Assembly (NCBI RefSeq): GCF_040054535.1
Contig: NC_090789.1
Location: forward strand, 6,118,697-6,182,696
Source: Antennarius striatus
Taxonomy: Eukaryota > Chordata > Actinopteri > Lophiiformes > Antennariidae
Direction: 5' to 3'
Length of the DNA: 64,000 bases
The notes below the pieces were generated by a model that searched no databases, had not been told where the DNA came from, and saw only the letters and a list, made by a program, of their open reading frames with translations. This document shows, in pieces, positions 5,029 to 55,834 of the stretch (its first letter is position 1; every line of letters starts with the position of its first letter). The translations under genes and the position numbers were made by a program.

Positions 5029-7263
5029 GATCCATCCTCACGTCTGCAGCAGCGCTGTGTGTAGCGCTCCGTTCAGTTTTTCATTTTTTATTTGCAAACG
5101 GTGATTTTCCTATATAATGTGGGAGATGCTCAGTGTGCCAAACTTTTACCCAGTTTTTCTATTTCCCTGGAGAGAAAACCGTCAGAATCATCAAGGAGGA
5201 GTTCCACAGGACTGCAGGTGAATGATGTAGAAATCTGATAAATTCATTTGAAAGCATGTTCTCTTAATGATATTTTCTGCAATGTTAGTAACATTAATTT
5301 CTTTTCGGATGTCCCAGTGTAATTTGCTGCCATAGATGGTACCCATATTCCCATCAAGACTCCCTCACATAATGAAGGTGATGATTTGAAGAGGATGACA
5401 ATTCACAGAAAATATATGCAGGTACAAGTACATTGACTACTGTTTCAAAATGTTAAAGACCGCATCATAGATAAACTAACATCTGTCCAGATCACATGTG
5501 ATGCTGCAAACAACATTTTCCGCCCTTATTTTTATAGCGCCTAATCACTTCAGCAGACATTTCAAAGAGTTTTAACAGACGGACACCCAACAGAACCCTC
5601 CAGAGCAAGCATAAGCAGCAGCAGCGGGGAGGAACTCCCCTCAGTATTGATGTGGAGACGGAGCGGTCCTGATCGGTTCCTGACTCACGGGTGTATGATG
5701 AGTCTCACCTGAGCAACAAGCTAATGCAGTAACTAAAGATTAGCACAATAATTCATTTGTCTACATTGTTTAATCCACTCTAATGAATCTATTTTCTATC
5801 ACAGGAGAGTCTGATGGTTGATTTCTGGGGGACAGGGGTCACCCATGCCCAACCGAGGCTGCTGACCCCTTGCTATCTATCTATCTGTACATTGGATGTG
5901 ACGGACTGTCCAGCTTGCTCTGTTAAAAAAGCATGAGAAAGTGTTGATCCTTCAGTGGAGGCTAAATGTCACTCTGTATTGCACCAGAATGTTAAGCAAT
6001 AGGAACAATCGGTAACAGAATATATTCGACCACCTTTCTTTTCTTCAATTTCCTGTTACTTTCTTTTTCTTTTTATTAATTATGTATAATTTGACTAAAA
6101 GACACAGAGAATTAAACATGGAATGCCTGAAAGCACATTTATGTGTGTGACAAGAGCATTCTGTCGGCGATAAAAGTAACAGACTCTCTGAACATAACCT
6201 GGACATAACATAAAATATTAGACCACCTATGTTTTCTTCTATTTCTTGTTAATTTCTTTTTGTTTTTATTGATGATTAACTCCTGTGTGTATCATTTGAC
6301 TAAAACAGACATAAAATAAAACTTGGAATACCTTAGAGCAATTCTAAGCAGTACAATGCCACAGCCACTGATATAAGAACTAAAGCAGTTTTGGCTATTA
6401 CTGTATCAAAAGAGCTACATGTCAGCTCTTGATTTCAGTTCTTAGATAATATAGGTGTACGCAATGGTGTGAATATCCTTATCAACTATTTTTGTAACGT
6501 GAATATGTCGATTTACTGTTTTATTTACACAACAATAAAACGTTTAAATATATTTCCTTATTGAACAGAACCTGATATACAGTAGATAAGAGCGCATTTA
6601 TGTGCGTGAAAAGAGCATTATGTTGGGGATAAAACAATTGATAGTCAAACGTCCACTTAATACTTACTGTACAATATCAAACATAATGAGGATGAGGAGG
6701 ATCCCTAACGAGATGATGCAGAAGTCTGACCTGTGGGAATGATGTTTTTATACTTCATTCTCAGCTGCTGACGTGCGCTTCTCCCCCCGCTGGATTGCAC
6801 CTAAATAAAATAAATTAATAAACTGTTATTGAAGCCATTTACTTCCATATTTTTACTGTGAGTGCAACACACTACGTTTAAAGTTACGCATCGACTTGAG
6901 CAGCAATTCACTCCCACGACATGTCGCTCTTCTTTGCAGCTGCAACACTGTTCTCTTTCTTGTCCTCAAAGTCTTCATATTCATGAATTAAAATCTGTAC
7001 TCCGACTGCTGTAAAGTGCTGCGGAGCACGTCTCATCCGTCGTCATTGTGAATCGTCAACTCGGGGCTCCATTGATGATGGCTTTTTTTTTCGAGTTGTC
7101 ATGTCTGTTAAACTGCGGGTCAACTTACTCTGGGTTAGAAAAACTAACCCTGAAACTTATTTGTGAAACCGAAATCCCTGGTTTTTCCAAGTTCAGGGTA
7201 AAGCAACCCAGAACCACATGTTTACCTCAGCGTAGGTTAACCCTGCCTTTGTGAAACGGGCCC
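4482..7263. mobile_element. Harbinger-like non-autonomous DNA transposon with 3-bp TSD
   Basis: Terminal inverted repeats GGGCCTGTTTCACAAAGCCA (left) and, read inward from the right, GGGCCCGTTTCACAAAGGCA. They are flanked by ACT at 4479-4481 and 7264-7266. The uninterrupted site, acacACTGAGC, is seen in the related LTRs near 14325 and 19620, which proves the borders. The subterminal parts are rich in AACCCTG/CAGGGTT motifs. No transposase frame is seen in 2.8 kb. The 3-bp duplication suggests PIF/Harbinger, but this is inferred. Confidence 0.85.
4975..5026. repeat. (CA)n microsatellite
   Basis: About 26 uninterrupted CA units inside the Harbinger-like element. Confidence 0.98.
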
Positions 7264-7484
7264 ACTGAGCTCCGGTAGCACACATGATAATGTGATCCAC
7301 CAGCATCAGCAATCCTAAGCTTGGCATGTCCAGAAATCGTCTCATGGTCGGCAAAGGTGACTCAACTCCGTGAAAAACCGGCATGATACCGTTTACTTCC
7401 GGTATTTTCCAAGAAAGCGCGCGTCTCCTAGAGACCGTCACTCTGCCCCCCTCTGTCCAAAGTTAATTCTTACAGCAGGACTAC

Positions 7485-7546
7485 TTCTTCTTTTCCTTTC
7501 GGCTTTTCCCTTCAGGGGTCACCACAGCAAATCAATTGCCTCCCAA
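7485..7546 (-). mobile_element. Very short RTE LINE 3' tail
   Basis: The stretch reads, on minus, GGTGACCCCTGAAGGGAAAA followed by GCCGAAAGG and an AAGAAG tail, matching the 3' end of the RTE copy at 2790-2830. It sits inside the LTR where the other LTR copies (14550, 19835) read straight through from GGACTAC to AACTGAG. It is thus a tiny, extremely 5'-truncated insertion private to this copy. Confidence 0.8.
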
Positions 7547-7706
7547 CTGAGAATATATTAATTACAGTGGTTTTTATTCCCTGAGTATCTTTAAATAGTT
7601 TTACCACCTGGTTACAATGATACAAAATGTTTGGTAGGTATTATACACTGTATACATACAGTATACATGGAGTGTATATAATATACATGTATATACTGTA
7701 TGTATG

Positions 7707-8085
7707 CAGTAATCCCCCATTACTAGCAGTTAATGCATTCCAGCACTACCTACCAGAAAACTAAATTCTGCAATATAGCGATGAGCTATTTATTTTATTT
7801 TTTGCAGTCATTTTAACGTTTGTGGACTCTCCCCATACTGATATTAAACCATCTTACATATGCATTACCTTTTCCCCACATTCTTACGCACTGTTCCAAA
7901 CACCTTTGTACTATATAAAAGTGTTTCTTTAATAAATGGAAGTGCGCTGCGTTCTCGAAATGCAGCGCACAGGCGGATGCTGTCAACCAATAGCATGTGC
8001 GTACAGTATCACGTGACTACCTACTAAAAATCTACAATGTAGTGAAGCTGTGCATCTTGAGGCACGAAAAAACGAGAGATTATTG
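7707..8085. mobile_element. Mariner-like MITE, copy A
   Basis: Ends are inverted copies of CAGTAATCCCCC / CAATAATCTCTCG. The right flank is TA and the left flank is a mutated TG. The equivalent element at 19961-20347 has TA on both sides. There is no open frame. It lies in the intron-like sequence upstream of fucosyltransferase gene 1 and was duplicated together with it. Confidence 0.7.
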
Positions 8086-8371
8086 TATATAAATTATTCT
8101 TTAAATGACACTTGATGCTTATCTAATGTACTTGTATAAGCAATGTAGGGCTTACAAATCTCCATTAGTATTTGCATTTTTATTATTGGTTTGGCTTTAG
8201 CTGATACTGTTGATAATTGATAATAATTTCAAAAATAATTTTCCTTGTAGATAAAAGTGATATAGTTGTTGCAGCCTTTCAACATAAAAACGAACAGGGA
8301 ATTGACTTAATAGCAGATTACAGATTAATGAATGTTAAATCACTGACTCATTTCTTTCTCTTATTCCACAG

Positions 8372-9463
8372 ATGAATCCTCCACCTACCAAGAAATTATT
8401 TTTTGTGGCAACAACATGTGCTGTGCTCATCTGCTGTACATTTGCAGTACTTCTATTTTTTAATAACTTTTCTCCTAAATGGACAGCTCCACCTTTTTTA
8501 GCTGCCATTAATAATTCTAAAAGTGTGGAAACAAAAAAAAAGCCCATTGTCCTGTTGTGGTTCTGGCCTCTTGGTGTACATTTTGATTTCAAAGAATGCT
8601 CTCGTGTCCACAATATTGACGGCTGTATTCTGACTGATGACAAATCTCTGTATAATGAAGCCGAAGGACTAATTATCTTCCACAAACATATTTCACGGGA
8701 CTTGTCAAACCTGCCGCGAAGTCCACGTCCAGGTTTCCAGAGGTGGATTTGGTACCATGTGGAATCCCCAACAAATACGGCAAAGATACCAGGACTGGAA
8801 AACCTGTTCAACTTGACACTGAGCTACAGAAAAGATGCAGACATCACGGTGAGGAACGAGCTCACCATCAGACCCAAAGACATGAAAGATGACTTTGTTC
8901 TGCCAAAGAAAGACAAACTCGTCTGTTGGGTTGTCAGTAATCATAATCACCACACTGGAACAGCTGTGAGAGAAAACTATTATCATGAATTGTCCAAACA
9001 CATTGCGATCAACGTGTATGGTACAGCTTTTACACCTCAAAGGCTGAGTTTTGATGACTACTACACAACGATTTCTCGCTGTAAATTCTACCTGTCATTT
9101 GAGAACTCAGTCCATAGAGACTACATCACAGAGAAGGTTAACGGGCCCCTGTATGCAGGGACAATACCTGTAGTTCTGGGTCCCCCAAGAGCAAACTATG
9201 AGGTGTTCTATCCCTCTAGTGCCTTCATTCACATAAATGATTTCCCTGATGCAAAGTCATTGGCAGATCATCTACACTTCTTGGATAAAAATGATGAGGC
9301 GTACATGAAGTACTTTGAGTGGAGAAAGCACTACACAGTGAGTCGTCATGTCCTGACACTCCAAGAAAGATTTGTTCAGCCTGTCTGTCTTGCCTGTGAT
9401 TTTGTGGCAAAAAACAAGGAATATCGCGAAATCCACGGTCTTTATGATTGGTACTTTTCCTAA
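8372..9463 (+). CDS. Alpha-1,3-fucosyltransferase, FUT9-like (gene 1)
   Basis: A Golgi type II membrane enzyme of family GT10 that would transfer fucose from GDP-fucose to N-acetylglucosamine in lactosamine chains (Lewis-x type structures). The 363-residue length is typical. Visible parts: a short cytosolic tail, signal anchor about residues 9-31, acceptor-side motif RWIW (124-127) with ESPTN (131-135), sequon NLT (147-149), and the donor motif FENS (243-246) to YITEK (251-255) and PVVLGPP (266-272). The coding region is one exon. A polypyrimidine tract and CAG (TTATTCCACAG) sit directly before the ATG, so a 5' UTR exon must be spliced to the start codon. Gene 2 is about 98% identical. The substrate is inferred from family only, so no symbol is given. 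Confidence 0.95.
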
Positions 9464-9699
9464 AAGACTAAATGAGTGTGATGAAATGAAAACGTCTTTG
9501 TGTCAATATGCAGATTAATGAACACACTCGTGAATATTGAGCCTGTAACCTTGGCTCATGTGAGCTGGCTAAGTTCAGCTGGTATACCTGTTTTAAAATT
9601 TTGATTTTGTTTTAATTAAAAAAAAGACATAAAACGTCAATAGGCCATTCTTTGTTGAGTCAAGTGATGGATTTTTTCCTCAAGTGTGAAAGTGATTGT

Positions 9700-9800
9700 G
9701 TCTGTGTGGTCCCGCAATAAACTGGTGACTTGTCCAAGGTGTACCCTGCCTCCCGCCTGATGTTAGCTGTGACTGACTCCAGTGAAATCTTGTGACCTGG
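9700..9800 (+). repeat. Partial copy of a dispersed SINE-like repeat
   Basis: The stretch contains GTGACTTGTCCAAGGTGTAC and the CTGCCTCCCGCCTGATG block. These resemble the 3' part of the repeats at 12965, 18012, 24181 and 25215. It is inserted in the 3' flank of fucosyltransferase gene 1. Confidence 0.55.
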
Positions 9801-10052
9801 AAGTGAATGAATAACATGGAAAAATTTGTTTCAAGTGTAAATATTTGTTTCTGACTACAAAATTTGGCTTTTATGAAAATAATAATTGAAATAAAATAAA
9901 AATGAGTCAACTGTGTCAATTATAGAATGATCGAATGCAAACATTACCGGGACTGACTTGAATTCATCCCAAGACAAACACATAGAGAGACAAGGAACCA
10001 TTCATGCTCACAGTCACCAGTTAATTGCCATTTGAGTTCATTTAAATGCCAT

Positions 10053-10903
10053 TGCTGCAGTGGAAAGTGTCAGCAGCACCAAGTTCCTGGGTGTGCACAT
10101 CTCCGAGGACCTGTCCTGGGACCGTAACACCGCATCGCTGGCCAAAAAAGCCCGACAGCGCCTCTACTTCCTACGCAAACTGAGGAGAGTGAGAGCCCAA
10201 CCCCCCATGATGCTCACCTTCTACAGAGGCACCATTGAGAGCATCTTAACCAGCTGCATCACCGTGTGGTACGGCGCCTGCACCGTTTCCTGCCGTAAGA
10301 CCCTGCAGCGCATCATGAGAGCAGCTGAAAAGATCACTGGTGTCTCTCTCCCTTCCCTCACAGACATTTATAACACCCGCCTCACACGCAAAGCCATCAG
10401 CATTGCAGGTGATCCCACCCACCCCTCTCACAGCCTTTTCAACCTGCTGCCATCAGGTAGGAGACTGCAGAGTCTGCGGGCCAGAACCAGCAGGCTCAGG
10501 GAGTTTCTTTCACCAGGCAGTCAGGAGGCTCAACTCCCTCCCTGCTCTACCCCCTGCCATAGCCTTGAACTCTACCCTCATACTGCCCTGCCCTCTCCCC
10601 AGCACCTGACTACCCCCCCCCCCCATCAACTCAGGGACTATGCACGCGTCACTTCCCCTATGGGATTAAGGAGTGTATAGAAATGTTTACCATTCCTTGT
10701 GTTTCGTCTAATACTTCGTACTGTACTGTCTGATGTACCGCCCGTGTTGTACTGCCTGTTGTACTGCTTGTGTTGTCCTGCCTGTGTTGTCCTGCCTGTG
10801 TTGTGCTACCTGTGTTGTACTGTCTGTGTTGTACTGCCTGTTGTACTGCCTGTTTACCGTGGGTCAGAGAGGACTGCAATTTCATCTGTGCTGTATGTCT
10901 TGC

Positions 10904-10905
<2 letters not shown>
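10053..10905 (+). mobile_element. L2/CR1-like LINE 3' fragment
   Basis: The open frame to 10680 encodes the reverse transcriptase C-terminal region: FLGVHISEDLSWDRNTASL, then RLYFLRKLRR, FYRGTIESILTSCITVWYGA and GVSLPSLTDIYNTR. A 3' untranslated part follows. The tail (TTTGACAATAAAGCTGACTT and repeats of TTTGACT) is found at about 11555-11587, after a nested insertion. The left edge is abrupt at 10052, exactly where the duplicated fucosyltransferase 3' flank stops. A second copy of the same region lies at 13890-14265. Confidence 0.88.
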
Positions 10906-10944
<39 letters not shown>

Positions 10945-11550
10945 ATTTTATTTATATTGCACTTTACATTATAAGAATCTCAAAGTGCTACAAAGACAAA
11001 GAGAGCATAAAACATATAGTGAAGTAAACGAATAAAAACAGCACAACCCAACAATAAGGCATATATAAAAGACTAAGGAAAGGCCTTTTTAAAAAGGTGA
11101 GTCTTTAAGCCACGTCTGAAAGAATCCACAGTCTGTGGCGCTCTCAGATGGTCAGGGAGAGCATTCCATAGACTGGGAGCAGCCGAGCAGAAGGCTCGGT
11201 CACCCATGCTGTGCAACTTCGTTCTGGGGACCTTGAGGAGGTTGGCTGTGCTGGAGCAGAGGGTGCGTGAGGTGGTCTGGGGGACGAGGAGTTCCTTTAC
11301 GTAGGCTGGAGCGTTACCGTGTACACACTGGTGGGTGAGGAGGGAGATCTTATATTTGATCCTGAGTCCCACAGGGAGCCAGTGCAGTGATTCCAGGATG
11401 GGGGTGATGTGGTCATATTTCCACACCCTCATCAGGATCCTAGCAGCGCTGTTCTGTATGTATTGGAGCTTGTGAATGCTCTTGCTAGGGATCCCGATGA
11501 GGAGCGCATTACAATAATCCAGCCTGGAGGAGACAAAGGCGTGGTTAGTG
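10906..11550 (-). mobile_element. Nested LINE 3' fragment on the minus strand
   Basis: Minus-strand translation gives a reverse transcriptase C-terminus: [20 protein letters not shown] near 11490, [20 protein letters not shown] near 11400, then [13 protein letters not shown] and [12 protein letters not shown]. The 3' UTR ends in a (TTA)n tail (10906-10941 on plus). It splits the L2-like fragment, whose 3' tail resumes at about 11555. The clade is not certain. Confidence 0.85.
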
Positions 11551-11589
11551 GTACATTTGACAATAAAGCTGACTTTGACTTTGACTTAG

Positions 11590-12100
11590 AATTAAGTCAG
11601 GAGGACAAACAGCTTTCTAAAGAGAGAACAAAAACATTTTCAAGAGACAAGGACACATTAAATTAACATGGGTAGAAAGCCAGGACAGATGCAGAAAGTA
11701 ATTGAAATGCATGACTGTAACTGGTGTGGTTTGAAACCAAAAGACATACACTGCCTTCCAGCCTGTCTGTCAACTCTGATGCTTTTTCTGTTGACATCAC
11801 TATAGATTCCTGATTGGTGTGTCTCAGGCCCCATGAACTTGACAGGATTTAAATTATGGATTGTTTGCCATCAACAGACATGGAACATAGAAAATCAGTC
11901 TGCAGGTATCCATGACAAATAATGAAACATTTCCTTGACCTGCCCATAACTGTTTGTTCGACCTTTTTTTAGAGACAAAGTACCTCATTGACAAAAGCTG
12001 ACAGTTTCCATTCTATTCTATTTTAATCTTACTGTCATAAAAAATTGAAGATAAACATATAGAACATTGCTCGTGTAAAATCAAGGGGATATGCAGACTG
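11590..12100. other. Unannotated stretch
   Basis: No gene, clear repeat or motif was recognised here; it is AT-rich single-copy-looking DNA. Confidence 0.5.
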
Positions 12101-12107
12101 TTTTTCA

Positions 12108-12163
12108 GGTTGTTCTTTCCCGAGTGTTTTGTCATAAAACAAAACACTCAGGAAAGAACAACC
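12108..12163. repeat. Near-perfect hairpin, 25-nt arms
   Basis: Arms at 12108-12132 and 12139-12163 are complementary except at one position, with a 6-nt loop (CATAAA). The left arm begins GGTTGTTCTTTCC. A further copy of the AGTGTTTTGTTTTG motif follows at once (12165-12180). It could be a small MITE core or a small-RNA precursor; no other evidence separates these. Confidence 0.75.
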
Positions 12164-12574
12164 TCAGTGTTTTGTTTTGTGACAATTTTTTTAAAGCCAA
12201 GATTGTTTTGAGCCTCTGTGTATGTCATCAGAGTGTACACCACTATTGCTCTAACTTTGTCTATAAGTCATAATAATAATTTTCTTCCAATAGCTGACAG
12301 TGAAGCACATGTAACCTCCAACTTGAGCTACAAATGTTTCCTTGTATATGAACTGTGTAATGTATTGTTTGTTCTTTGTTGCCTTTCATTTGCAGCATTC
12401 ACATGTATTTACCCTGTGTGTGGACTGCATCTGTGAGTGTTTGTCGAAGTATTATGACTAATCACTGTATTCCTGAGTGTTCACAGAAGTCACATTCACA
12501 AGTTACAGCGGACGTGTCATCCTACAAATGGATTCTCATTAGATCAAACAAAAAGACTCCAACTGGTTTTTCTA

Positions 12575-12705
12575 GTTGAGTTTAACGGGCTGGGGAACAA
12601 ATCATTGTCAGATTTACGAAAGGATTCACTTGGTCTCAAGAGTCACACACCTGCAGTAAGTCTTCAGCTGAATATTGGAAATAAGCTTTAAATTCCTCAC
12701 AAAAG
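12575..12705 (+). promoter_or_regulatory. Candidate 5' UTR exon end of a fucosyltransferase unit
   Basis: This stretch ends in a strong splice donor, AAAAG|GTAAGG at 12705/12706. It resembles 29221-29323 upstream of gene 3, which shares AGTTGAG, CAGCTGAATAYTGG and a donor at the same relative place (AAAG|GTGAGA). The fucosyltransferase start codons follow splice acceptors directly, so a 5' UTR exon must exist. These conserved donor-ending blocks are the best candidates, but transcript data are lacking. Confidence 0.35.
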
Positions 12706-12964
12706 GTAAGGCCTCTTTAGCATGTTTTAATTCTTTAATCCTTTTGTAAATAAGAATCTAAAGTATCTCATGCATGTTTATCTGACATGCAAATTGATGA
12801 CTGGTTAATGGACTTTATACTTTTCACTGCTTCTTCAAGTTTTTAAAAAAATTACATTTCCTAAATGAATGATGGAAGATGTAAAACAAAAATGTAATCA
12901 CAGGTCTCAGACTTCAATTTCAAAAGCACATACATTTTTTTAAACAAGTATTGTATACCTTTAT

Positions 12965-13315
12965 GGCGGCACGGTGGCACACTGGGTAGCGCTGTTGCGA
13001 GTTCGAGTCCCGCTCTGTGTGGAGTTTGCATGTTCTTCCCGTGTCTGCATGGGTTCTCTCTGAGTTCTCCGGCTTCCTCCCACCTCCAAAAACATGCGCT
13101 TCAGGTGAATTGGCCCGTCCAAGTTACCATAAGTGGGATTGTGTGCGTACGTGTTTATCTGTGTGTACGTATAGGTATGGCTCCGAGGTGCGCCGGAGTG
13201 TGTCCTGCCTCACGCTCCCAGTAGCCTGGAATAGATCCCGCAACCCCGCATCCGCTACAGCGGATGAAGCAAGTTGGAAATGGATGGATAGATGGATGGA
13301 AGTGCACCTTTAAGA
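12965..13315 (+). mobile_element. Dispersed SINE-like repeat
   Basis: Begins GGCGGCACGGTGGCACACTG, continues with GAGTTCGAGTCCCGCTCTGTG (tRNA B-box-like GAGTTCGAGTCCC), a CTCCGGCTTCCTCCCACCTC block, and ends in (ATGG)n with GATGGATAGATGG. Related copies lie at 18012-18330, 24181-24303 and 25215-25480. This is a very common fish repeat. I regard it as SINE-like but cannot name the family with certainty. Confidence 0.75.
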
Positions 13316-13377
13316 TACACTACACTGTTAAAAATTAGTCAGTCTGAAAGTGGATGATAGATTCTCATAAATGTGGA

Positions 13378-13432
13378 GGCATTTCTTTCTCTTCTTCCCA
13401 GGATGAGTCCTCCACATCCAACGAAATATGTT
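13378..13432 (+). pseudogene. Fucosyltransferase 5' relic (acceptor plus first codons)
   Basis: The stretch CATTTCTTTCTCTTCTTCCCAG followed by ATGAGTCCTCC (ATG at 13403) matches the acceptor and first ten or so codons of genes 1 and 2 with a few changes. The protein would start MSPPHPTKY against MNPPPTKKL. Similarity stops near 13432. The following 13440-13660 instead resembles the intron-like sequence at 29690-29890 upstream of gene 3. It is a remnant of another fucosyltransferase unit. Confidence 0.7.
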
Positions 13433-13682
13433 CAATGAGCTCATACATCCAAATAGAATCAAATGAAAAACTTCTGAGTTTAATTTGATTGGAATAAAAA
13501 AATGAACAAATCCGTAACAGCCTTGTTCACACAATAAAAAAATCAAGTTAGTCTTGCTGATCGTTGTTCTGTGATAACAGAGCAAGTTCAAAATTCTTCT
13601 GTCGTAACAGAATAATTTGCTAAATTAAAATATCAAATGATCAAAATTGTATTTGGAAGCGCATAAAGTAAAATAATCTAGA

Positions 13683-14265
13683 GGGGTTGCAGTTGGACTT
13701 CCTGACAGGGAGACCACAGGCAGTTCGAGTTCGTAACAACACCTCCAGCATCATCATGCTGAACACGGGAGCCCCCCAAGGATGCATACTAAGCCCCCTC
13801 CTCTTCACTCTGCTAACCCATTGACTTCCAGCTCCAACCTCTTCATCAAGTTTGCAGACTGTATTGGGTCTCATTAACAACAATGATGAGACAGCCTACA
13901 GAACTTTGTGCTGCAGTGGAAAGTGTCAGCAGCACCAAGTTCCTGGGTGTGCACATCTCCGAGGACCTGTCCTGGGACTGTAACACCGCATCGCTGGTCA
14001 AAAAAGCCCAACAGCACCTCTACTTCCTCCGCAAACTGAGGAGAGCAAGAGCCCAACCCCCCATCAGGCTCACCTTCTACAGAGGCACCATTGAGAGCAT
14101 CTTAACCAGCTGCATCACTGTGTGGTACGGCGCCTGCACCGTTTCCTGCCGTAAGACCCTGCAGCGCATCATGAGAGCAGCTGAAAAGATCACTGGTGTC
14201 TCTCTCCCTTCCCTCACAGACATTTATAACACCCGCCTCACCCGCAAAGCCATCAGTATCAGCAT
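13683..14265 (+). mobile_element. L2/CR1-like LINE fragment, internally deleted
   Basis: Translates to [18 protein letters not shown] and [17 protein letters not shown] (reverse transcriptase motif). After a deletion it jumps to SVSSTKFLGVHISEDLSW and FYRGTIESILTSCITVWYGA, up to the codons for RKAIS. It is the same family as 10053-10905. It breaks off abruptly at about 14265, where the truncated LTR starts. Confidence 0.85.
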
Positions 14266-14627
14266 CAGCAACAAAAATACGTAACAAAAATACATCAGTG
14301 GCACCTCTGGCTAGCTTAAACACACTGAGCTCCGGTAGCACACATGCTAATGTGATCCACCAGCATCAGCAATCCTAAGCTTGGCATCTGTTAATGTCCA
14401 GAAATCGTCTCACAGTTGGCACAGGTGACTCAACTCCGTGAAAAACCGGCATGATACCATTTACTTCCGGTATTTTCCAAGAAAGCGCACGTCTCCCAGA
14501 GACCGTCACTCTTCCCCCTTCTGTCCAAAGGTAATTCTCACAGCAGGACTACTACAACTGAGAATATATTAATTACAGTGGTTTTTATGCCCTGAGTATC
14601 TTTAAACAGTTTTACCACCTGGTTACA
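14266..14627 (-). repeat. 3' LTR, truncated
   Basis: Ends at 14627 (ACCTGGTTACA on plus). It matches the other LTRs from about the AACAAAAATACATCAGTGGC block onward, but lacks the first roughly 240 bp present at 19300-19590. The missing part is replaced by the L2-like fragment. Confidence 0.85.
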
Positions 14628-14639
14628 TTCTCCCCTGCT

Positions 14640-15095
14640 TAACTGTTAACGTCCTCGTTGACAGCAAAGCTATTTTTCACTTCATTAAGCGCTTCTCTAA
14701 AGAATACAGATCCCATACTTGACAGGATATGAGATACCATTGCAGGACTTAGAGACAATGACTCAAAAACCGATCTGGGCTCATGGTGTGGGTTTGGGTG
14801 AACTCCAGCATTCGCTCTTTTACTTCTCCACTGAGCAGGTATTGGTGGTTGCACCCCTGAATTTGGTTTCTGTCTCTGACGAACAACAGGGAGAGGCGCA
14901 TGTACATCAGGTGTCTGGTTAGTTCTAGGGTCAGGTGCATCAGACCCTGCTACTCCCTGATAAAGAACTGGACCCTCATCCTCTCTCAACACAAACTCAG
15001 AATTAGCTGTTTCACGTTCACAGTCTCTGACGGGTGAATTTTCTGTGTTTGGATCAGAGTTTAAACCAAAGGAAACATCATCAACAATAATAAAA
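14640..15095 (-). pseudogene. Gypsy integrase C-terminal tail
   Basis: The minus-strand open frame 14992-14639 contains APLPVVRQRQKPNSGVQPP and PHHEPRSVFESLSLS, a proline/arginine-rich tail like that after the integrase in Gypsy elements of fish, and ends just before the polypurine tract. It is separated from the zinc-binding part (15100-15240) without any DDE core between them. Confidence 0.75.
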
Positions 15096-17950
15096 CTTAA
15101 TAGGTGGATGAATCTTGGGATGAGGCATTTGGGTCAAAATACACTGATGGCAGTTCTTTACCCACCGTTCAATGTCATTATGCATGCCTGCCCAAAATGT
15201 TCTTTGTCTCAACAAATACAAGGTTCTCTCTTTCCTTGATGACTCATAGAGTCATGCACACTCTCCAGTACCTGTTTTCGCAAACAGTTTGGAACAAGCA
15301 ACTGAAGACAGTCTCCATGGTGCACATCTTCAACCACTCGGTACAACAAGCCATCTTTCTCTCTTATACGTTTACTCTGTTTAAACAGTGACTTCACAGC
15401 TCTGGAGAGATTTCTCCTTTCCTGAGGACTTGGATTATGTTTTTGATCCCAAAATGTGCGAAATACACTGAGCTCTGAATCCTGACTCTGAAATTTCCTT
15501 AACTCTTCCTGTGAATAGCCTGGAAGTGTTGGTGTAGCCTCCTTTACAACAGACTGACACGCATCTGCATCAAGTGCTCTGATCTGATTAACCTGAGATT
15601 TGACCCCTGCAGTAACCAACTCAGGTTCAAGGGAGGTTCCTTTCCAAATCATATTGCAAATGGGCACACAGTCATCAAATTCCTTGTCATCTTGGTCGGG
15701 TACTGGCTCCCCTGCTAACGGGTGTCGTGAGAGAGCATCAGCTGCTGTGTTGGATCGTCCTGGATGGTACTGTACATCAAAGTCAAATGCAGCTACCTGT
15801 GTCACCCATCTCTGTTCAATGGCTCATAGTTTTGCATTTTTGAGATGACACAAGGGGTTATTAGCAGTAATGAAAGTAAACTTGGAGCCAAGTAAATAAC
15901 GCCGAAACTTCTCAACTATGGACCACTTGAGTGCTAGCAGTTCTAACTTAATGCTGCTATAGTTTTTGTCATTTCGTTATGCATTTCTTAGTCGTCTGCT
16001 TGTATATGCAATCACCCTTTTTCTGTCGCCTTGTTGCTGTAATAGGATAAGTCCTAGACCCTGACTGTTTGCGTCAGTTTACAAAATGAAAGGGCGAGTG
16101 AAATCTGCAAAACCTAACACCGTTGCAGTAATTAGTTTTTCCTTTTAGATCAAAGGCCTGTTGACAATTATCATCCCACAAGGCTCTGAGCTTTTGGCTG
16201 GCCTTCGCGGGACTGCAAGCTGCACGCCATTGATTCCCCACATCATGTTAGGGAGAAGCAATCTTTGAAAATCCTTCAACATACCTATGGTAGTAGCTAC
16301 ACAGGCCCAAGAAAGATTGCAGTTCTTTCACTGTAGAAGGTGCAGGCCATTCCTTGACAGCTACCACCTTACAAGGGTCTGTTGCAATACCATCTGCTGA
16401 GATCTGATGCCCTAAATATCTGACTTCTTTTTGGAAAAAGTGACATTTTCCCAACTTAACCTTCAGTCCGGTGTCTCTGAGACACTTTAACACTATGTCA
16501 AGCCTATCCAGGTGTGACTGAAACGAGGGCGAGTACACCAAAATATCATCAAGGTATACAAGCATGATTTCAAAGATCAAATCTTTCATAGTCGCTTGCA
16601 TTAACCTTTGAAAGGTCGCAGGACCATTGCAAACACCCGTAGGCATACGCAAGTCTTCAAACAGCCCGAACGGCGTTGTAAATGCAGTCTTATGCCTGTC
16701 AAGCTCGTCTACCACTACCTGGTGATAGCCCCTTGCAAGGTCAAAGGTGGAAAAATATCTGGCACCTTTCAAAGCATCAAAGCTTTCGTCGATGCGAGGT
16801 AGTGGGAATGCATCTCTTTGTTTTCAGGTTTAGCTTGCGATAGTCTACACATAGGCTTATGCTGCCATCCTTTTTACGGACTGCAACCACAGGTGAAGCA
16901 TATGAACTCTCGCTCTCTTGAATTATGCCCTTTTTTAACTGCTTTGAAACGTGTTCTTGGACTTCTTTATATTGGTTATGTGGTATTTTCCTATAAGGCT
17001 GTGTGACAGGTATGTCATCAGCCAGCTTAACTTTGTGTTTCACTTCATCAGTACAACCGAGATCTTCCTCATCATTAGCAAATACATCAATGTACCTTGC
17101 CAATAAGGCCCACAGAGATGCTTTCTCCTCATCATCACCACCAATGTCGAGACTGACTAAGATAGTCTGCATTTTACTGTCAATGTGTCCATCTTTGGTG
17201 TCAACAGAGACCTGTTCAAAATCTGCAGAGATCCGATTAAACTTAACTTCATAGGTCTGGTCACTTTCAACACACTCCACGGTTGAGATGATTCCTAGCT
17301 TGGTTCTTGGACACAGCCACACGTCTTCTTGTAAGAAATTTACGATCTGGACCGGAATGACATGGCACTTGCCATCTACCAATGCTGGGATGACAACTAC
17401 ACCAGTGGGTAGGGGTGTGTTTATAGGCTCAATAATCTTTTGTGTATTGTTGGCTGTCTCTTTGGAGAGACCCCTAACCATGACAGTGGCAACACAAGAA
17501 GCAGGTATTCTCACTTTTTCCCTACCTGCTACCCTGACAATTGTTTTCTTTGGAACAATGCATGTTTGTATTGCTGAAATGCAGTTGTCCAACCAGAAGC
17601 TACCGTTCCTTTCAACCCTGTATCAAACTCTGATATGACAAGTTGTCGACATATGCGAATGACATTCATACCGATGATGTACTGTTCTGCTGTGGCTACA
17701 CTCGCTGAGGGTTTCAAGACCAGGAAACCACAGTGTGGGATTTTCAAACCCATTGTCTCCACTTCCAGTTGAACATATCCTTGATAAGGTATCTCAAGGC
17801 CGTTTGCAGCCGTTATCTTGAGCCAACTAGAAGTGACAAGCAAGGCATGATTGTGCTGACTTCGCTACCTGTATCTAGTAAGCCGCGAGCTTGTGTACTC
17901 TTGAGCTTAAGATCAACTACTGGACACTTGCCGATTGTACGCTCAATAAC
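15096..17950 (-). pseudogene. Gypsy pol: protease, RT, RNase H end, integrase zinc domain
   Basis: Order on minus: protease with LLDTGSEVST (near 17890), linker, reverse transcriptase with KKDGSISLCVDYRKLN (near 16860) and the catalytic YLDDILVYS (near 16545), FLGLCSYYHRYV (near 16290), RNase H end with YHPGRSNTAADALSRHP (near 15740), and the integrase HHCC zone (DSMSHQG near 15230, CHQC near 15140). At least one frameshift near 16810 and stops between 15805 and 16248 break it. The DDE catalytic core that should follow CHQC is gone. Description only; this is an inactive endogenous element. Confidence 0.9.
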
Positions 17951-18011
17951 TTGCTATCGAGTAAATTCAGGTTTGGTTGAGTCTGACATGTGTCCCTGCA
18001 TTGTTCGAATC

Positions 18012-18330
18012 ATGGGCGGCACGGAGGTCCCAGGTTCGAGTCCTGCTCTGTGCGGAGTTTGCGTGCTCTCCCCGTGTCTGCGTGGCTTCTCTCCGGGTTC
18101 TCCGGCTTCCTCCCACCTCCAAAAGCATGCGCTTCAGGTTGATTGGCCGGTCCCAAATTGCCTGTAGGAGTGAGTGTGTGTGTGAGTGGTTGTATGTCTT
18201 TGTGTGTGGCTCCGCGGAGCACTGGCGTCGTGCCCGGAGTGTCCCCCGCCTCACGCCCTATGCCACTGGGATAGGCTCCAGTTCCCCGCAACCCGCTGCG
18301 GTGGATACAGCGGTGGTAATATGAAAATGA
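18012..18330 (+). mobile_element. SINE-like repeat inside the Gypsy element
   Basis: GGGCGGCACGGAGGTCCCAG, then GGTTCGAGTCCTGCTCTGTG (B-box-like), the CTCCGGCTTCCTCCCACCTC block and the end GGATACAGCGGTGG. It is the same family as 12965-13315. It lies between the gag zinc knuckle and protease coding parts and so postdates insertion of the retrotransposon. Confidence 0.8.
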
Positions 18331-18339
18331 CTGACTGAC

Positions 18340-19275
18340 TGTTTGACTCACTACAACCAGGGGTTCTCGTTTCCCTGCCGACTTGAAGCAGAAGGGTTCT
18401 CTGTATGCTTCAGTTGTTTCTGTGGCCACTGTTTAGCAACATGACCTTCAGTTTGACATCAGAAACATATTGGTTTACCATCAGCTGTAAACTTTGGTAG
18501 AGTTTTTGGTCTCGTAGCTGATGTGGTGCTTAGACTTCGATTCTGAGTAGTCAAATTCTTTACTGCCTTAGTTAGTTCAATGATAACTTTCCCTTGTTCA
18601 GCAAGAATAGTCATAACATCACCAAGTGAGACAGATTTCTCACTAGCTTGATCGGTTGTGCTGACTTTCTCTTACTCTGCGAGGACCTCGATGCGATGAC
18701 ATCCTCAAGGTACCCTTTTTTTCTCACCAGCCATTGCAGCTGTACACTGTGCATCTGCGGTTACATGGCTACAGACTTTAACTCTACTCTTTACATCTTT
18801 TGCACTTATTGCAGGCTCCTCTGAGGCCCACAAGTAAGCTTCTTCACATACTTCTATCAAAGTTGATTCTGGATGAGCCCTGACATATTTACAAAGTTCC
18901 CGTGACAATGCAGGGTCTCTCACTCCATCGACAAACTGGTCTCTTAATGCCAATTTCTCATTAGCAACAGAGCTGGGATACTGTTTCAGTACTGAATTTA
19001 GTGCTTGTGATAAGGCATATGAAAACTCACGTATGCCCTCACCTTCTTTCTGTTTGCAGCTATAGAAGTTCTGAAGTAGCTGGGAGATACTGCGGTTATC
19101 TCCAAAAGCTTCTCTAAAGTAGCAAAAAATACTCTCTGTGGTTCACTGCACCATGCAACACAGCTATCTCTGTCCCTCCGGATCTGCTGTCGGGTCACTC
19201 TTCACCACTGCTGTATTTTACTCTACTATGCATACAATTATCGCCAATTTTAAATTTGACGGGAAAGACAAAAGA
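18340..19275 (-). pseudogene. Gypsy gag remnant
   Basis: The minus strand encodes ALRDQFVDGVRDPALSRELC and YVRAHPESTLIEVCEEAYLW (18950-18820), a capsid C-terminal signature of fish Gypsy gag. Near 18450 is a decayed zinc knuckle in which the second Cys region has a stop and the last Cys is Trp. Several frame breaks are present between 19000 and 19200. Confidence 0.75.
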
Positions 19276-19276
19276 G

Positions 19277-19294
19277 ACCCCACTCCTGGTACCA
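19277..19294 (-). other. Primer binding site, tRNA-Leu type
   Basis: On minus TGGTACCAGGAGTGGGGT, five bases inside the LTR edge. It is complementary to a tRNA 3' end reading ACCCCACTCCTGGTACCA, as in vertebrate tRNA-Leu(UAA). Confidence 0.85.
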
Positions 19295-19299
19295 AGATT

Positions 19300-19907
19300 T
19301 GAAGCCGGGATAAGTAACACACAGACTTCAAATGCAATTTTTTGTGGGTCTTTATTGTGTTCCCCAAATCAAGATATAATATTGGAAATAATTATAAATG
19401 AAATTTAAGGTGTTGGTTGAATCAATTTGTAAATTTACCAAAATAATCAGATATGGTTTACATAAAATTATTCTTGTTCTGTTTCCCAATTTTAACACAA
19501 TGTTACCAAAAAAGTACATAAAAATGCATAGAAAAATACATGAAAAAACACATAGAAAAATAGGTAACAAAAATCACTTAACAAAAATACGTCAGTGGCA
19601 CCTCTGGCTAGCTTAAACACACTGAGCTCCGGTAGCACACATGCTAATGTGATCCACCATCAATAGCAATCCTAAGCTTGGCATCTGTTAATGTCCAGAA
19701 ATCGTCTCACGGCCGGCACAGGTGACTCAACTCCGTGAAAAACCTGCATGATACCGTTTACTTCCGGTATTTTTTAAGGAAGCGTGAGTCACTCTACCCC
19801 CTTCTGTCCAACGTTAATTCTTACAGCAAGACTACAACTGAGAATATATTAATTACAGTGCTTTTTATTCCCTGAGTATCTTTAAATAGTTTTACCACCT
19901 GGTTACA
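19300..19907 (-). repeat. 5' LTR of the Gypsy element
   Basis: A complete 608-bp LTR with TG...CA ends on minus. It is the best-preserved of the three copies, and the bases to its right are identical to the right flank of the solo LTR at 7616. Confidence 0.88.
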
Positions 19908-19960
19908 ATGATACAAAATGTTTGGTAGGTATTATACACTGTATACATATATCATGTATA

Positions 19961-20347
19961 CAGTAATCCCCCATTACTAGCAGTAAATGCGTTCCAGCAC
20001 CACCTACCAGAAAACTAAATTCTGCAATATAGCGATGAACTATTTATTTAATTTTCTGCCGTCATTTTAACGTTTATGGACTCTCCCCATACTGATATTA
20101 AACCATCTTATATATGTATTACCTTTTCCCACATTCTAATGCACTGTTCCAAACACCTTTGTATCATAGAAAAGTGTTTCTTTAATACATGGAAGTGCGC
20201 TGCATTCCTGGGAGTCTCGGAATGCAGCGCACACACGGATGCTGTCAGCCAATAGCATGTGCATACGGTATCACATGACTACCTACTAAAAATCTACAAT
20301 GTAGTGAAGCTGTGCATCTTGAAGCACGAAAAAACGAGAGATTATTG
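19961..20347. mobile_element. Mariner-like MITE, copy B
   Basis: Terminal repeats CAGTAATCCCCC and CAATAATCTCTCG, with TA on both sides (19959-19960 and 20348-20349). It occupies the same place relative to gene 2 as 7707-8085 does to gene 1. An inverted, partial relative is seen at about 23090-23345. Confidence 0.75.
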
Positions 20348-20639
20348 TATATAAATTATTCTTTAAATGACACTTGATGCTTATCTAATGTACTACTATA
20401 AGCAATGTAGGGCTTACAAATCTCCATTAGTATTTGCATTTTTATTATTGGTTTAGCTTTAGCTGATACTGTTGATAATTGATAATACCTGTAATTTCAA
20501 AAATAATTTTCCTTGTAGATAAAAGTGACATAGTTGTGACAGCCTTTCAACATAAAAACGAACAAGGAATTGACTTAATAGCAGATTACAGATTAATGAA
20601 TGTTAAATCACTGACTCATTTCTTTCTCTTATTCCACAG

Positions 20640-21731
20640 ATGAATCCTTCACCTACCAAGAAATTACTTTTTGTGGCAACAACATGTGCTGTGCTCATCT
20701 GCTGTACATTTGCAGTACTTCTATTTTTTAATAACTTTTCTCCTAAATGGACAGCTCCACCTTTTTTAGCTGCCATTAATAATTCTAAAAGTGTGGAAAC
20801 AAAAAAAAAGCCCATTGTCCTGTTGTGGTTCTGGCCTCTTGGTGTACATTTTGATTTCAAAGAATGCTCTCGTGTCCACAATATTGACGGCTGTATTCTG
20901 ACTGATGACAAATCTCTGTATAATGAAGCCGAAGGAGTAATTATCTTCCACAAAGGTATTTCACGGGACTTGTCAAACCTGCCGCGAAGTCCACGTCCAG
21001 GTTTCCAGAGGTGGATTTGGTACCATGTGGAATCCCCAACAAATACGGCAAAGATACCAGGACTGGAAAACCTGTTCAACTTGACACTGAGCTACAGAAA
21101 AGATGCAGACATCACGGTGAGGAACGAGCTCACCATCAGACCCAAAGACATGAAAGATGACTTTGTTCTGCCAAAGAAAGACAAACTCGTCTGTTGGGTT
21201 GTCAGTAATCATGATCACCACACTGGAACAGCTGTGAGAGAAAACTATTATCATGAATTGTCCAAACACATTGCGATCAAACTGTATGGTACAGCTTTTA
21301 CATCTCGAAGGCTAAGTTATGACGACTACTACGCAACGATTTCTCGCTGTAAATTCTACCTGTCATTTGAGAACTCAGTCCATAGAGACTACATCACAGA
21401 GAAGATTAATGGGCCCCTGTGTGCAGGGACAATACCTGTAGTTCTGGGTCCCCCAAGAGCAAACTATGAGGTGTTCTATCCCTCTAGTGCCTTCATTCAC
21501 ATAAATGATTTCCCTGATGCAAAGTCATTGGCAGATCATCTACACTTCTTGGATAAAAATGATGAGGCGTACATGAAGTACTTTGAGTGGAGAAAGCACT
21601 ACACAGTGAGTCGTCATGTCCTGACACTCCAAGAAGAATTTGTTCAGCCTGTCTGTCTTGCCTGTGATTTTGTGGCAAAAAACAAGGAATACCGCGAAAT
21701 GCACGGTCTTTATGATTGGTACTTTTCCTAA
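20640..21731 (+). CDS. Alpha-1,3-fucosyltransferase, FUT9-like (gene 2)
   Basis: Same 363-residue GT10 architecture as gene 1: signal anchor about 9-31, RWIW at 124-127, FENS 243-246, YITEK 251-255 and PVVLGPP 266-272 are all intact. The splice acceptor TTATTCCACAG again abuts the ATG. It differs from gene 1 at 21 nucleotides by my hand count, about 17 replacing and 4 silent. The 15 residue changes include a cluster at residues 214-232 (N214K, V215L, P222S, Q223R, F227Y, T232A). The upstream LTR and MITE are shared with gene 1; the downstream flank is shared but carries private insertions. The enzyme should be functional as far as motifs show. Confidence 0.95.
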
Positions 21732-30224: not shown

Positions 30225-31325
30225 ATGATTTTCCCATCTCCCGGAAGGATTCGGTGTCTGGCAAAGACACTTGTTATGATTGCCGCTCTCTCTTCTATTC
30301 TTGCATTGTTTCAATTGTTTGATGATTTTAATCATGTTATGTGGTCATATCCACCTATGTTAGAATACAAAGCTGATTATCAAGGCAATCATGAAGAACT
30401 GAATACAACAGGGAAGCCCATCGTTCTGTTGTGGTTCTGGCCTCTTGCTTTAAAGTTTGACCTAAAAGATTGCTCTCGCTACTTCAACATTGACGGCTGC
30501 ATTCTGACTGATGACAGATCTCTATACAGCAAATCAAAAGGAGTAATATTCTTCCACAATGAAATTGACAGGAAATTGAAAAACATGCCACAAATACCAC
30601 GTCCAATTTTCCAGAGGTGGATTTGGTTTAATATGAAACCCCCAACAAATACGTTGAGGGTACCAGGTCTGGATAATCTGTTCAACATGACACTGAACTA
30701 CAGGACAGACGCAAGCATCCCAGTGATTAACTCCCTCTTCATCAAACCGTCATGGATGAAAGATGACTTCACTCTGCCAAAGAAAGACAAACTCGTGTGT
30801 TGGTTTGTTCATGATGAAGCCCCATCCAACGGAAGAGTTGGAGATGGATACTACAAAGAGCTGTCAAAATATGTTACGATCCACAGACGTACGATTGGAG
30901 GGCAAATGTTGAGTTATGAAAACTATTACTCAGCAATTTCCAACTGTAAATTCTACCTGTCATTTGAAGACACAATTAACAGAGACTACATCACAGAAAG
31001 TCATGGGCCCCTGTGTATGGGGACAGTCCCTGTAGTTCTGGGTCCCCCAAGACCAAACTATGAGCAGTTCTATCCGTCTAATGCCTTCATTCACGTAAAC
31101 GATTTCCCTGATGCAAAGTCATTGGCAGATCATCTACACTTCTTGGATAAAAATGATGAGGCGTACATGAAGTACTTTGAGTGGAGGAAGCACTACACAG
31201 CCATTCCTTATCTCCTGCCAGTTATTCATGAATTCATTAAGCCTATCTGTCTGGCCTGTGATTACATATCAAGAAACAATGAATACTATGTAATCCAAGG
31301 CCTTAATGAGTGGTACTTTTCCTAA
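30225..31325 (+). CDS. Alpha-1,3-fucosyltransferase, FUT9-like (gene 3, divergent)
   Basis: A 366-residue GT10 protein: signal anchor about 12-32, RWIW 131-134, sequon NMT 154-156, donor region FYLSFEDT (243-250) then YITES (255-259), and PVVLGPP further on. Compared with genes 1 and 2, the FENS block is FEDT. The YITEK lysine is missing: a 3-bp deletion turns TEK-V-N-G-P into TES-H-G-P. In characterised GT10 enzymes this lysine helps hold GDP-fucose, so activity may be lowered or changed, yet the frame is fully open. The codons for [20 protein letters not shown] and the next 8 residues are nucleotide-identical to genes 1 and 2. The ATG follows a splice acceptor; an AATAAA lies at 31386-31391. 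Confidence 0.93.
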   Translation: MIFPSPGRIRCLAKTLVMIAALSSILALFQLFDDFNHVMWSYPPMLEYKADYQGNHEELNTTGKPIVLLWFWPLALKFDLKDCSRYFNIDGCILTDDRSLYSKSKGVIFFHNEIDRKLKNMPQIPRPIFQRWIWFNMKPPTNTLRVPGLDNLFNMTLNYRTDASIPVINSLFIKPSWMKDDFTLPKKDKLVCWFVHDEAPSNGRVGDGYYKELSKYVTIHRRTIGGQMLSYENYYSAISNCKFYLSFEDTINRDYITESHGPLCMGTVPVVLGPPRPNYEQFYPSNAFIHVNDFPDAKSLADHLHFLDKNDEAYMKYFEWRKHYTAIPYLLPVIHEFIKPICLACDYISRNNEYYVIQGLNEWYFS

Positions 31326-31402: not shown

Positions 31403-31435
31403 ATCCGTGGCCTTTATGAGTGGTGCTTCTCCTAA
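31403..31435 (+). pseudogene. Fucosyltransferase 3' relic
   Basis: The sequence encodes IRGLYEWCFS and a stop, corresponding to the last codons [10 protein letters not shown] of genes 1 and 2. The 3' flank after it (TGTCAATGTGCAGATTAATGAACAC and on) matches the 3' UTRs of genes 1 and 2, while the 70 bp between it and the gene 3 stop do not. It looks like the end of a second gene fused behind gene 3. Confidence 0.7.
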
Positions 31436-33041: not shown

Positions 33042-33478
33042 ATGGCAGTGATTGTCATCCTGGCTGGACTCGTAGTTCTATTTTTAATGTCCTATAAATC
33101 ATTTCCTTTTGCAAACTAGCACCCTATCCAAGCTCATTCAAGTAGCCTGGCGAAGCAGTTCTCCAGCCACGATGCATCTGCTGTTGGTGAACAACCCAAC
33201 AGCTTTGCAGTGTTACAAAAGACAGACAAGCCTGTGATGCTGCTGCAGTTCTGGCTTGAAGACAAAAGATTTGATTTCCAAGACTGTAAAACATTTTACC
33301 ATATTGAAGGCTACCACCTCACAGATGATCGATCTTTATACCGAGGGCTGAGACTGGTCTGGTCTTTCACAGAGCTACACCTTTCTGGTCTTCCCACCTC
33401 ACCCAGGGAAATATTTCAGAAGTAGATCTGGTTTAACATGGACTCACCCACCAACTAGTGCAAAATACTGGGAATTCA
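33042..33478 (+). pseudogene. Fucosyltransferase pseudogene (5' third)
   Basis: One frame runs from a possible ATG at 33042. It gives a signal-anchor-like stretch (MAVIVILAGLVVLFLMSY), a TAG at about 33117, then TDKPVMLLQFW, FDFQDCKTFYHIEGYHLTDD and REIFQ. At the acceptor motif, RW is K-stop (TGG to TAG), followed by IWFNMDSPTN and another stop. The reading is close to the family up to about residue 145, then ends in the microsatellite at 33499. The upstream 32455-32520 also resembles the intron-like flanks of genes 1 and 3. Confidence 0.85.
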
Positions 33479-33498
33479 GGGTCTTTGTTTTTTCCATC

Positions 33499-53109: not shown

Positions 53110-53501
53110 GCTCCTCTCCTCAGATTCAACCCACTCACCGGTCGACTAGCGCTAGAAATTGACTCCATTTAGAACTAAAGTGGGCATGAAAGATGCCGAA
53201 CTGTGAGGAGGCATAGGCGACTTATTAAAACAGCAGGGAAGGACTTTGGACTTCAGCCAAATAGGATGTCACCCTGATGCGCGCTGACCGGACCCGGAGA
53301 CGTTTAGGTATTAGTTGTGGAGATGCTCTCCTGCTTCGGTCTGTGTACCTGGAGATTTATTTTAGACAGCAATGGACGCTTTGACTGGAATCTACTCTTG
53401 CGCTTGAGTGACGAGGAGACTGCTGCGTTTTGGGACTGAATGTGTGGATGCAAGGCCTTTTGTGGGACGCAAAGTTACTGTATTTTGTCAGTGAAGTAAA
53501 T

Positions 53502-53915
53502 ATGATGGAGTTTCGTCAAAGATGCACCATGGAGCCAAAACAGCAGGTGGATAATGACCCAATCGGTCCCAGCAAGCACATGTGGCTGAATGACGCGCCA
53601 TGGAGCGGGAACCTGGAAATCGGCGTGCGTAATGAGCTTCTGGTGACGGGCGCCCCGAGGTTCTGCAGTCGCGGGTTGCACAGACATCCCAACAAACCCA
53701 AACGGAGGAGGATCATCAATGTAGTCCAGAGACAGGCGGCGAACGTGCGGGAAAGGAGGCGAATGTTTAGCCTGAATGAGGCGTTTGACGAACTGAGGAG
53801 AAAAGTTCCCACATTCGCCTATGAAAAGAGGCTGTCCCGAATCGACACACTCCGCCTGGCCATCGTCTACATCTCCTTCATGACCGACTTGCTGGAGCAA
53901 AATAGTCAAAGATGA
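53502..53915 (+). CDS. ferd3l: Fer3-like bHLH transcription factor
   Basis: A nuclear bHLH factor (also Nato3) that in vertebrates acts in floor plate and ventral midbrain progenitors, binding E-boxes with E proteins. One exon, 137 residues. The bHLH lies at about 77-130: basic part [20 protein letters not shown], then [20 protein letters not shown] and [13 protein letters not shown], as in FERD3L. An upstream basic patch NKPKRRR (64-70) may serve nuclear import. The start was placed at 53502 (tandem ATGs at 53502 and 53505); 53529 is another possibility, and the frame is open upstream to 53430. It sits next to twist1 on the same strand, as in other vertebrates. Confidence 0.94.
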
Positions 53916-55785: not shown

Positions 55786-55834
55786 CCAATCACAGCGCTC
55801 CCCAAAATCCTCCTTGCGCGCTCCCCGCTATAAG
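55786..55834 (+). promoter_or_regulatory. twist1 core promoter (CCAAT and TATA boxes)
   Basis: CCAAT at 55786-55790 (CACCCAATCACAG) and TATAAG at 55829-55834, about 40 bp apart and 180 bp before the start codon. Transcription would start near 55860. Spacing and order are typical of a regulated TATA promoter. Confidence 0.65.

Follow-up and report, generated by a model that had tools for sequence, protein, structure and literature searches.

When tandem copies of a gene differ mainly by substitutions that change the protein, has selection driven them apart, or has the constraint on them relaxed? The question is raised by a 64,000-nucleotide stretch of the Antennarius striatus genome (one genome of 548 Mb in 42 contigs), here called the window (C14:6118697-6182696), which carries a tandem array of FUT9-like genes of the GT10 family. 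Gene 1 (g1, 8372..9463, forward strand like all features below whose coordinates are written with two dots) and gene 2 (g2, 20640..21731) are intact open reading frames (ORFs) of 363 residues with 96% protein identity. A sequence-only reading of the two had proposed positive selection, relaxed constraint or conversion from another paralogue for their replacement-rich divergence. We find it probable that this is a birth-and-death array of FUT9-like alpha1,3-fucosyltransferase genes, comprising an upstream copy (g0), g1, g2, a divergent gene 3 (g3) and a pseudogene fragment, which evolve under relaxed constraint with patchy gene conversion. Selection on the acceptor-side parts of the enzymes is possible and unproven.

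Direct comparison of g1 and g2, both intact over 1092 nt, bore out the earlier count of 21 nucleotide differences, 17 replacing and four silent. The 15 residue changes (at 4, 10, 100, 106, 192, 214, 215, 222, 223, 227, 232, 256, 261, 333 and 354), six of them within residues 214-232, were likewise as described. NG86 estimates were 0.0201 for replacement (dN) and 0.0173 for silent (dS) divergence. Under neutrality, the share of replacements among random non-stop coding changes is 0.70-0.78 (kappa 1-6), and the probability of 17 or more replacements among 21 changes was 0.19-0.48. The 95% intervals of omega (dN/dS) ran from 0.40-5.0 to 0.60-7.5 over the same range of kappa, and an omega of 0.3 or less was rejected (P<0.005). 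Since the intervals include 1, positive selection between g1 and g2 was not demonstrated. The differences were clustered, with eight of the 21 in 60 bp (p=0.0006), 11 in 150 bp (p=0.0002) and six of the 15 residue changes within 19 residues (p=0.003). Two silent changes (225 and 228) also fall in the cluster at residues 214-232, so it is not replacements alone that are in excess there.

The flanks of g1 and g2 were about 5% different (41/813 aligned sites) versus 1.9% of the coding sequence (p=0.0002), and the silent sites also lay under the flank level (4/~236, p=0.03). A change point in divergence fell near 8014 (0/500 permutations). We then used the third near-identical copy, g0, the fourth gene on C14, which is found outside the window at L009 4356-5447, 4-5 kb upstream. 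Differences were assigned to g0, g1 or g2 by hand from a three-copy table, and the totals agree with the computed counts. In the distal 5' flank of g1 (7299..8005), which serves as the unconverted yardstick, g2 alone differed at 43 of ~595 aligned sites (7.2%); over 8006-9563 it did so at only 17 of ~1558 (p=8e-13). Nine of these 17 lie in a 129-bp island spanning codons 215-257 (9014..9142 in g1 coordinates and 21282..21410 in g2, an offset of 12268), which thus holds nine of the 11 g2-private coding differences, with six replacing and three silent changes (6N:3S). Divergence was 7.0% in the island, equal to that of the distal flank (p=1.0), and 0.6% over the rest of 8006-9563. The stretch 8006..9013, made up of the DNA ahead of the ATG plus codons 1-214, has six g2-private differences in ~1008 bp and is read as homogenised by gene conversion. 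By copy, the clustered change at residue 214 belongs to g1, those at 215, 223, 227 and 232 belong to g2, and residue 222 changed in both g0 and g2. The residue cluster is nearly all g2's, and the island is most of the cluster.

The abrupt changes of divergence, with silent sites and flanks included, give good support to g2 being a gene-conversion mosaic. Over most of its coding exon and the adjoining upstream DNA, g2 is near-identical to both g0 and g1, the 129-bp island being the exception. In the simplest history, g2 and the ancestor of g0 and g1 would have been homogenised on either side of the island, where the older divergence survived. The homogenisation would be gene conversion that predates the g0-g1 duplication.

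Two other origins of the island were weighed. Peaks of divergence under gene conversion are a described signature in the red and green opsins, as given in an excerpt of PMC3924837, and the island is shaped like such a peak. It could be explained in the same way if diversifying positive selection on acceptor recognition drove the stem, the acceptor-facing parts and the hinge, with conversion keeping the donor half uniform and selection shielding the g2 island from conversion, as in primate opsins; we judge this rather unlikely for the array. A peak preserved by selection should stand above the unconverted level and be enriched in replacements, and the island is neither. Its divergence equals that of the flank, so nothing in it needs selective preservation. 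Alternatively, the island could have been imported into g2 from another paralogue by conversion instead of being a leftover, which its sharp edges and high local divergence would suit. Its flank-level divergence is what a leftover predicts, however, and at the seven g2-private sites that can be aligned with g3, a hand count found g3 to match g2 at two, g0 and g1 at two and neither at three. An import is improbable, and g3, the one candidate compared, is unlikely as its donor. The conversion envisaged by the earlier reading was itself upheld; as for its source, g3 does not appear to be the origin of the cluster, and a different donor was not found.

The copies g0 and g1 belong to larger duplication units. 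The unit with g1 spans 6286..13678, and its partner with g0, at L009 2270-9321, precedes the window; the two are 97.8% identical over 6.5 kb and then 93.4% identical over 0.56 kb. Between g0 and g1 we counted 18 differences in 1092 coding sites versus 95 in 5409 flank sites. The ratio of replacement divergence to flank divergence was 1.03-1.06 (0.58-1.74), or 1.5-1.6 (0.85-2.58) without the two noisiest block-edge windows, which hold 37 of the 95 mismatches. Replacements between g0 and g1 have thus built up roughly as fast as changes in the DNA around the genes. The private coding changes were 5N:3S in g0, 10N:0S in g1 and 7N:4S in g2, and their sum of 22N:7S did not depart from the neutral share of 0.744 (p=1.0; omega interval 0.45-3.0). 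Coding scans found no clustering of private differences in g0 (p=0.80) or g1 (p=0.97). No stops or indels were seen in the coding sequences of g0, g1 and g2; only ~1.6 indels are expected between g0 and g1 (P(0)=0.20).

It could be objected that g0 and g1 are alleles set in tandem by the assembly, or that sequencing errors create the differences. Such an artefact is very improbable: the coding regions differ by substitutions and by no indel, the duplication units stand ~6.7 kb apart with other sequence between them, the g1 unit is ~300 bp longer, and the window contains no N at all. On the reading we prefer, g0 and g1 share a 6.5 kb tandem duplication and have since gained replacements about as quickly as their flanks have changed. 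Relaxed constraint fits because the replacement rate is near neutral. Most replacements would be tolerated because other, more conserved FUT9-like genes of the genome may make the copies redundant.

Codon models were fitted with self-written code, not with PAML or HyPhy, and conversion violates their assumption of a single tree. Giving g1 and g2 their own omega in a branch model did not improve the fit (log-likelihood gain 0.4). In none of the comparisons among g0, g1 and g2 was dN/dS significantly above 1, as the intervals for g1-g2, g0-g1 and all lineages include 1. On g1, g2 and g3, M2a was preferred to M1a (p 0.003-0.007), and the leading sites were codons with two or three nucleotide differences; when a multi-nucleotide rate was added, p rose to 0.44 and 0.73, and we rejected the signal as evidence.

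We also analyzed g3 (30225..31325), a divergent FUT9-like GT10 gene with an intact ORF of 366 residues. An 86-bp run in g3 (31101..31186) is identical to g0, g1 and g2 (counterparts 9239-9324 in g1 and 21507-21592 in g2). The run includes silent sites, the rest of the gene is ~26% different (281/1062 between g1 and g3), and the longest run in 5000 permutations was 50, which identifies it as a gene-conversion tract. Of the three explanations first offered for g1 and g2, conversion is therefore supported by the g2 mosaic and the g3 tract and relaxed constraint by the near-neutral replacement rate, whereas positive selection is not, since the omega intervals include 1 and the M2a signal was lost with multi-nucleotide changes. 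Pathogens or gametes as drivers of the change are speculation.

Residues Q75, E137, R202, N246, E255 and K256 of human FUT9 are assumed here to have functional roles. At the positions aligned with E137, R202, N246 and K256, g3 has K, G, D and S, the last with a one-residue deletion. In 23 other aligned loci, E137 is kept in 21 (the exceptions being 17.751 and 17.773), and R202, N246 and K256 are kept in all 23. The donor-binding motif (N246, E255 and K256 in human numbering by alignment) reads FENS and TEK in g0, g1 and g2, and FEDT and TES with the deletion in g3. Judged by these residues, g3 is probably catalytically inactive, likely a pseudoenzyme, while remaining a GT10 homologue by sequence; g0, g1 and g2, in which the conserved residues of the donor site and the putative catalytic ones are all present, are probably still enzymes.

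These results bear on whether the C14 copies are fading pseudogenes, already non-functional and with ORFs intact only because they are young. The g0-g1 replacement rate close to that of the flanks would agree with this, as would the loss of four residues in g3, an adjoining pseudogene fragment (described below) and the g3 branch, on which omega = 1 was not rejected (p=0.062). On the other side, g0, g1 and g2 retain all four residues, the three copies have no stop or indel, and the frames of both g3 and g1/g2 were kept over a dS of ~0.4. The M0 omega of the branch between g3 and g1/g2 was 0.71-0.77 under standard codon models, or 0.58-0.61 once multi-nucleotide changes were admitted, and M1a with a near-invariant codon class beat M0 under standard models, a gain that is small when multi-nucleotide changes are allowed. 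We regard wholesale loss of function as unlikely.

To place the array in its family, we searched the whole genome with the PF00852 profile. The 28 matches were counted as 27 loci (one broken gene gave two matches), and the counts are lower bounds. At least 27 GT10 (FUT9-like) loci were thus found: 13 at 17.71-17.81 Mb and four at 15.29-15.32 Mb on C17, two on C2, four on C14, and one each on C15, C6, C3 and C10; broken or partial copies were among them. A search for orthologues in prokaryote contigs found none, as expected. Three loci (L030, L031 and L032; partial, broken or part-domain) were omitted from the tree, the pair table and the motif table, leaving 24 of the 27 aligned.

When paralogues were added, dN/dS stayed high among array copies. 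Pairs of the C17 array with less than 16% nucleotide difference had NG86 dN/dS of 0.46-1.1, except two very close pairs (0 and 0.27), and the C2 pair had 0.90. For four disjoint C17 pairs the ratio was 0.93 over the whole gene, 0.55 in h62-h185 (h, human FUT9 numbering by alignment; p=0.01 below neutral) and 1.47 in the stem. Constraint elsewhere in the family is visible from 15.316 versus C2, with a ratio of 0.47 overall and 0.21 in the donor core.

Silent divergence in the donor core of the C17 array was about a quarter of that in its stem and N half. At codons for the same residue, silent differences summed over seven non-independent pairs were 14/541 in the donor half (h236-h320) versus 177/1469 elsewhere, and six of the pairs reached p<0.05 singly; the shares were 2-3% and 8-16%. 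The same drop was found in g2-g3 on C14. It was absent from 15.316 versus C2 14.564, which lie on different contigs, and not clear in 15.301-15.294. From these silent sites, the donor half thus seems to be reset by conversion in the C14 and C17 arrays alike.

Acceptor motif II, [F/I/V]HH[R/W][E/D], is reported for all alpha1,3/4-fucosyltransferases in an excerpt of PMC11949838. The C14 genes depart from it: g0 and g2 have IFHKG, g1 has IFHKH and g3 has FFHNE. In g1 the acidic position of the motif (human D112 by alignment) was hit by a double replacement at codon 106 (8687..8688), GGT in g0 and g2 being CAT in g1. Given the altered motif, synthesis of Lewis x by g0 to g3 should not be assumed. 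By hand count, the motif is retained in six of the 24 aligned loci (15.316, the two C2 copies, 17.805, 17.711 and C6) and altered in 18. It is altered in the C15 and C3 singletons too, so the alteration is not unique to arrays. In the array at 17.71-17.81 Mb (L011-L014, L016-L020 and L022-L024) we saw the variants FHHQY, FLHQY, FLHAD and IFHRF; two copies there are without E137 (17.751 and 17.773) and three without E255 (17.786, 17.726 and 17.734). This second, unlinked array thus shares with that on C14 a high dN/dS, changes in acceptor motif II and a donor half that is homogenised.

Site models of the 13-locus array were run on 11 genes, without the broken 17.766 and the start-less 17.734, and with relative branch lengths fixed in both the whole-gene and the regional analyses. 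Over the whole gene, M2a gave p 3e-6 even with a multi-nucleotide rate, a result that we do not trust because silent rates differ by region.

Several observations weigh against relaxed constraint with patchy conversion as a full account. With multi-nucleotide changes allowed, the C17 stem had an omega of 2.0 (p=0.004) and a significant M2a test (p=0.001), and M2a was also significant over h62-h235 (p=0.036). The variable sites of g0, g1 and g2 overlap those variable in C17 (11/16 versus 103/282, p=0.015). The 10:0 ratio of the g1 lineage, noticed post hoc, has a probability of ~0.03-0.08 under neutrality, and the g1-private differences are uneven (1/~595 distal versus 17/~1558 inner, p=0.034). 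Few indels are expected, so relaxed constraint and full neutrality are inseparable in g0, g1 and g2, and the neutral rate is not rejected for g3. Finally, 15.316 and 17.805, which are 2.5 Mb apart, show a weaker drop of donor-half silent divergence, and homogenisation of that half may not be strictly within arrays.

The stem and h62-h235 results and the shared variable sites would favour positive selection on acceptor recognition, as would the two replacements at codon 106 and the departure of motif II from the consensus in most aligned loci. Other results stand against it. The simple count in the stem, without a site model, was 100.5N:25.5S and not significant (p=0.11); omega in h62-h185 was 0.56, under 1 (p=0.008), and M2a was not significant there (p=0.26), in the donor core (p=0.96) or in the tail (p=0.95). 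The whole-gene signal is confounded by regional silent rates, and that of C14 vanished with multi-nucleotide changes. The overlap of variable sites is explained equally well by shared looseness as by shared selection. A broader version would make the two unlinked arrays modular mosaics, in which the donor-binding half is repeatedly reset by conversion and diversification, in part through positive selection, affects the stem, motif II and the hinge that precedes the donor motif; the outcome would be fucosyltransferases with different acceptors, and the g2 island would be a protected specificity segment. We hold this to be doubtful, and continue to favour relaxed constraint with conversion.

The window holds several further features. 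A pseudogene fragment of a further copy (33198..33485) matches g1 residues 47-145 at 41%, has two in-frame stops and is ended by a TATC microsatellite. A second copy of the C-terminal codons (IRGLYEWCFS-stop) stands in the 3' flank of g3 (31403..31435) and may be a scar that unequal recombination within the array left behind. A ~300-bp repeat adjoins g0, g1 and g2 and occurs once more between g1 and g2 (7263-7616, 14323-14627 and 19620-19911), and may have favoured unequal crossing over. The ATG of g1 is immediately preceded by a splice-acceptor-like ttattccacag, and a hydrophobic stretch, a candidate N-terminal transmembrane anchor of a type II Golgi protein, is visible by eye near residues 11-31 of the g1 protein. 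Near g1, the ORF at 10060-10680 has a Pfam ALKBH8_N match, a domain that we presume is often part of a retroelement ORF, and the 300 bp starting at 10053 recur at 13909 with 97% identity. Downstream, the ORFs at 53430-53915 and 55814-56563 both match the Pfam HLH domain and offer a synteny anchor; we take these bHLH genes to be FERD3L- and TWIST1-like.

Among known proteins, human FUT9 (PDB 8d0o) is the best solved relative of g1 and g2 by sequence. The likeness lies in the GT10 N and C domains, in the PDB match (the best one, E 2e-89 for g1) and in the FENS..DYITEK donor motif kept in g0, g1 and g2. Pfam Glyco_transf_10 and Glyco_tran_10_N were both far over their cut-offs in g1, g2 and g3 (for g1, PF00852 E 7e-65 and PF17039 E 6.5e-36), and g0 exceeded the PF00852 cut-off in a scan of that profile only. 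Unlike the human enzyme, to which they are ~47% identical over 297 residues, g0, g1 and g2 have V at the position of Q75 and IFHKH (g1) or IFHKG (g0 and g2) for the IHHRD of motif II, and g3 has lost key residues.

Expansion of FUT9 in fish is already known. The genome of the pufferfish Lagocephalus sceleratus is credited with 24 FUT9 genes in an excerpt of PMC8692874, a large copy number for a teleost, like the at least 27 GT10 loci here; that excerpt reports a count, whereas rates, motifs and conversion are analysed here. In farmed tilapia, two locations within regions of low diversity carry a FUT9A annotation, according to a passage of PMC10286235. Among the matches listed, which covered open-licence papers only, PMC8692874 alone reports such an expansion in fish, and none examines evolutionary rates or conversion in FUT9 arrays of fish. 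The FUT9-like genes of this genome are numerous and fast-evolving, with motif II often altered, and whether they make unusual fucosylated glycans is a testable question.

When two young tandem copies give a dN/dS close to 1 or higher, adaptive evolution is easily read into it. Here, a third copy and the flanks resolve the g1-g2 signal into a lineage with a near-neutral rate plus a leftover of conversion. The opsin duplicates, as described in the excerpt of PMC3924837, resemble g2 in having low divergence over most of the copy and a sharp coding island of high divergence; unlike theirs, the island in g2 has a neutral-like ratio of replacing to silent changes and the divergence of its flank.

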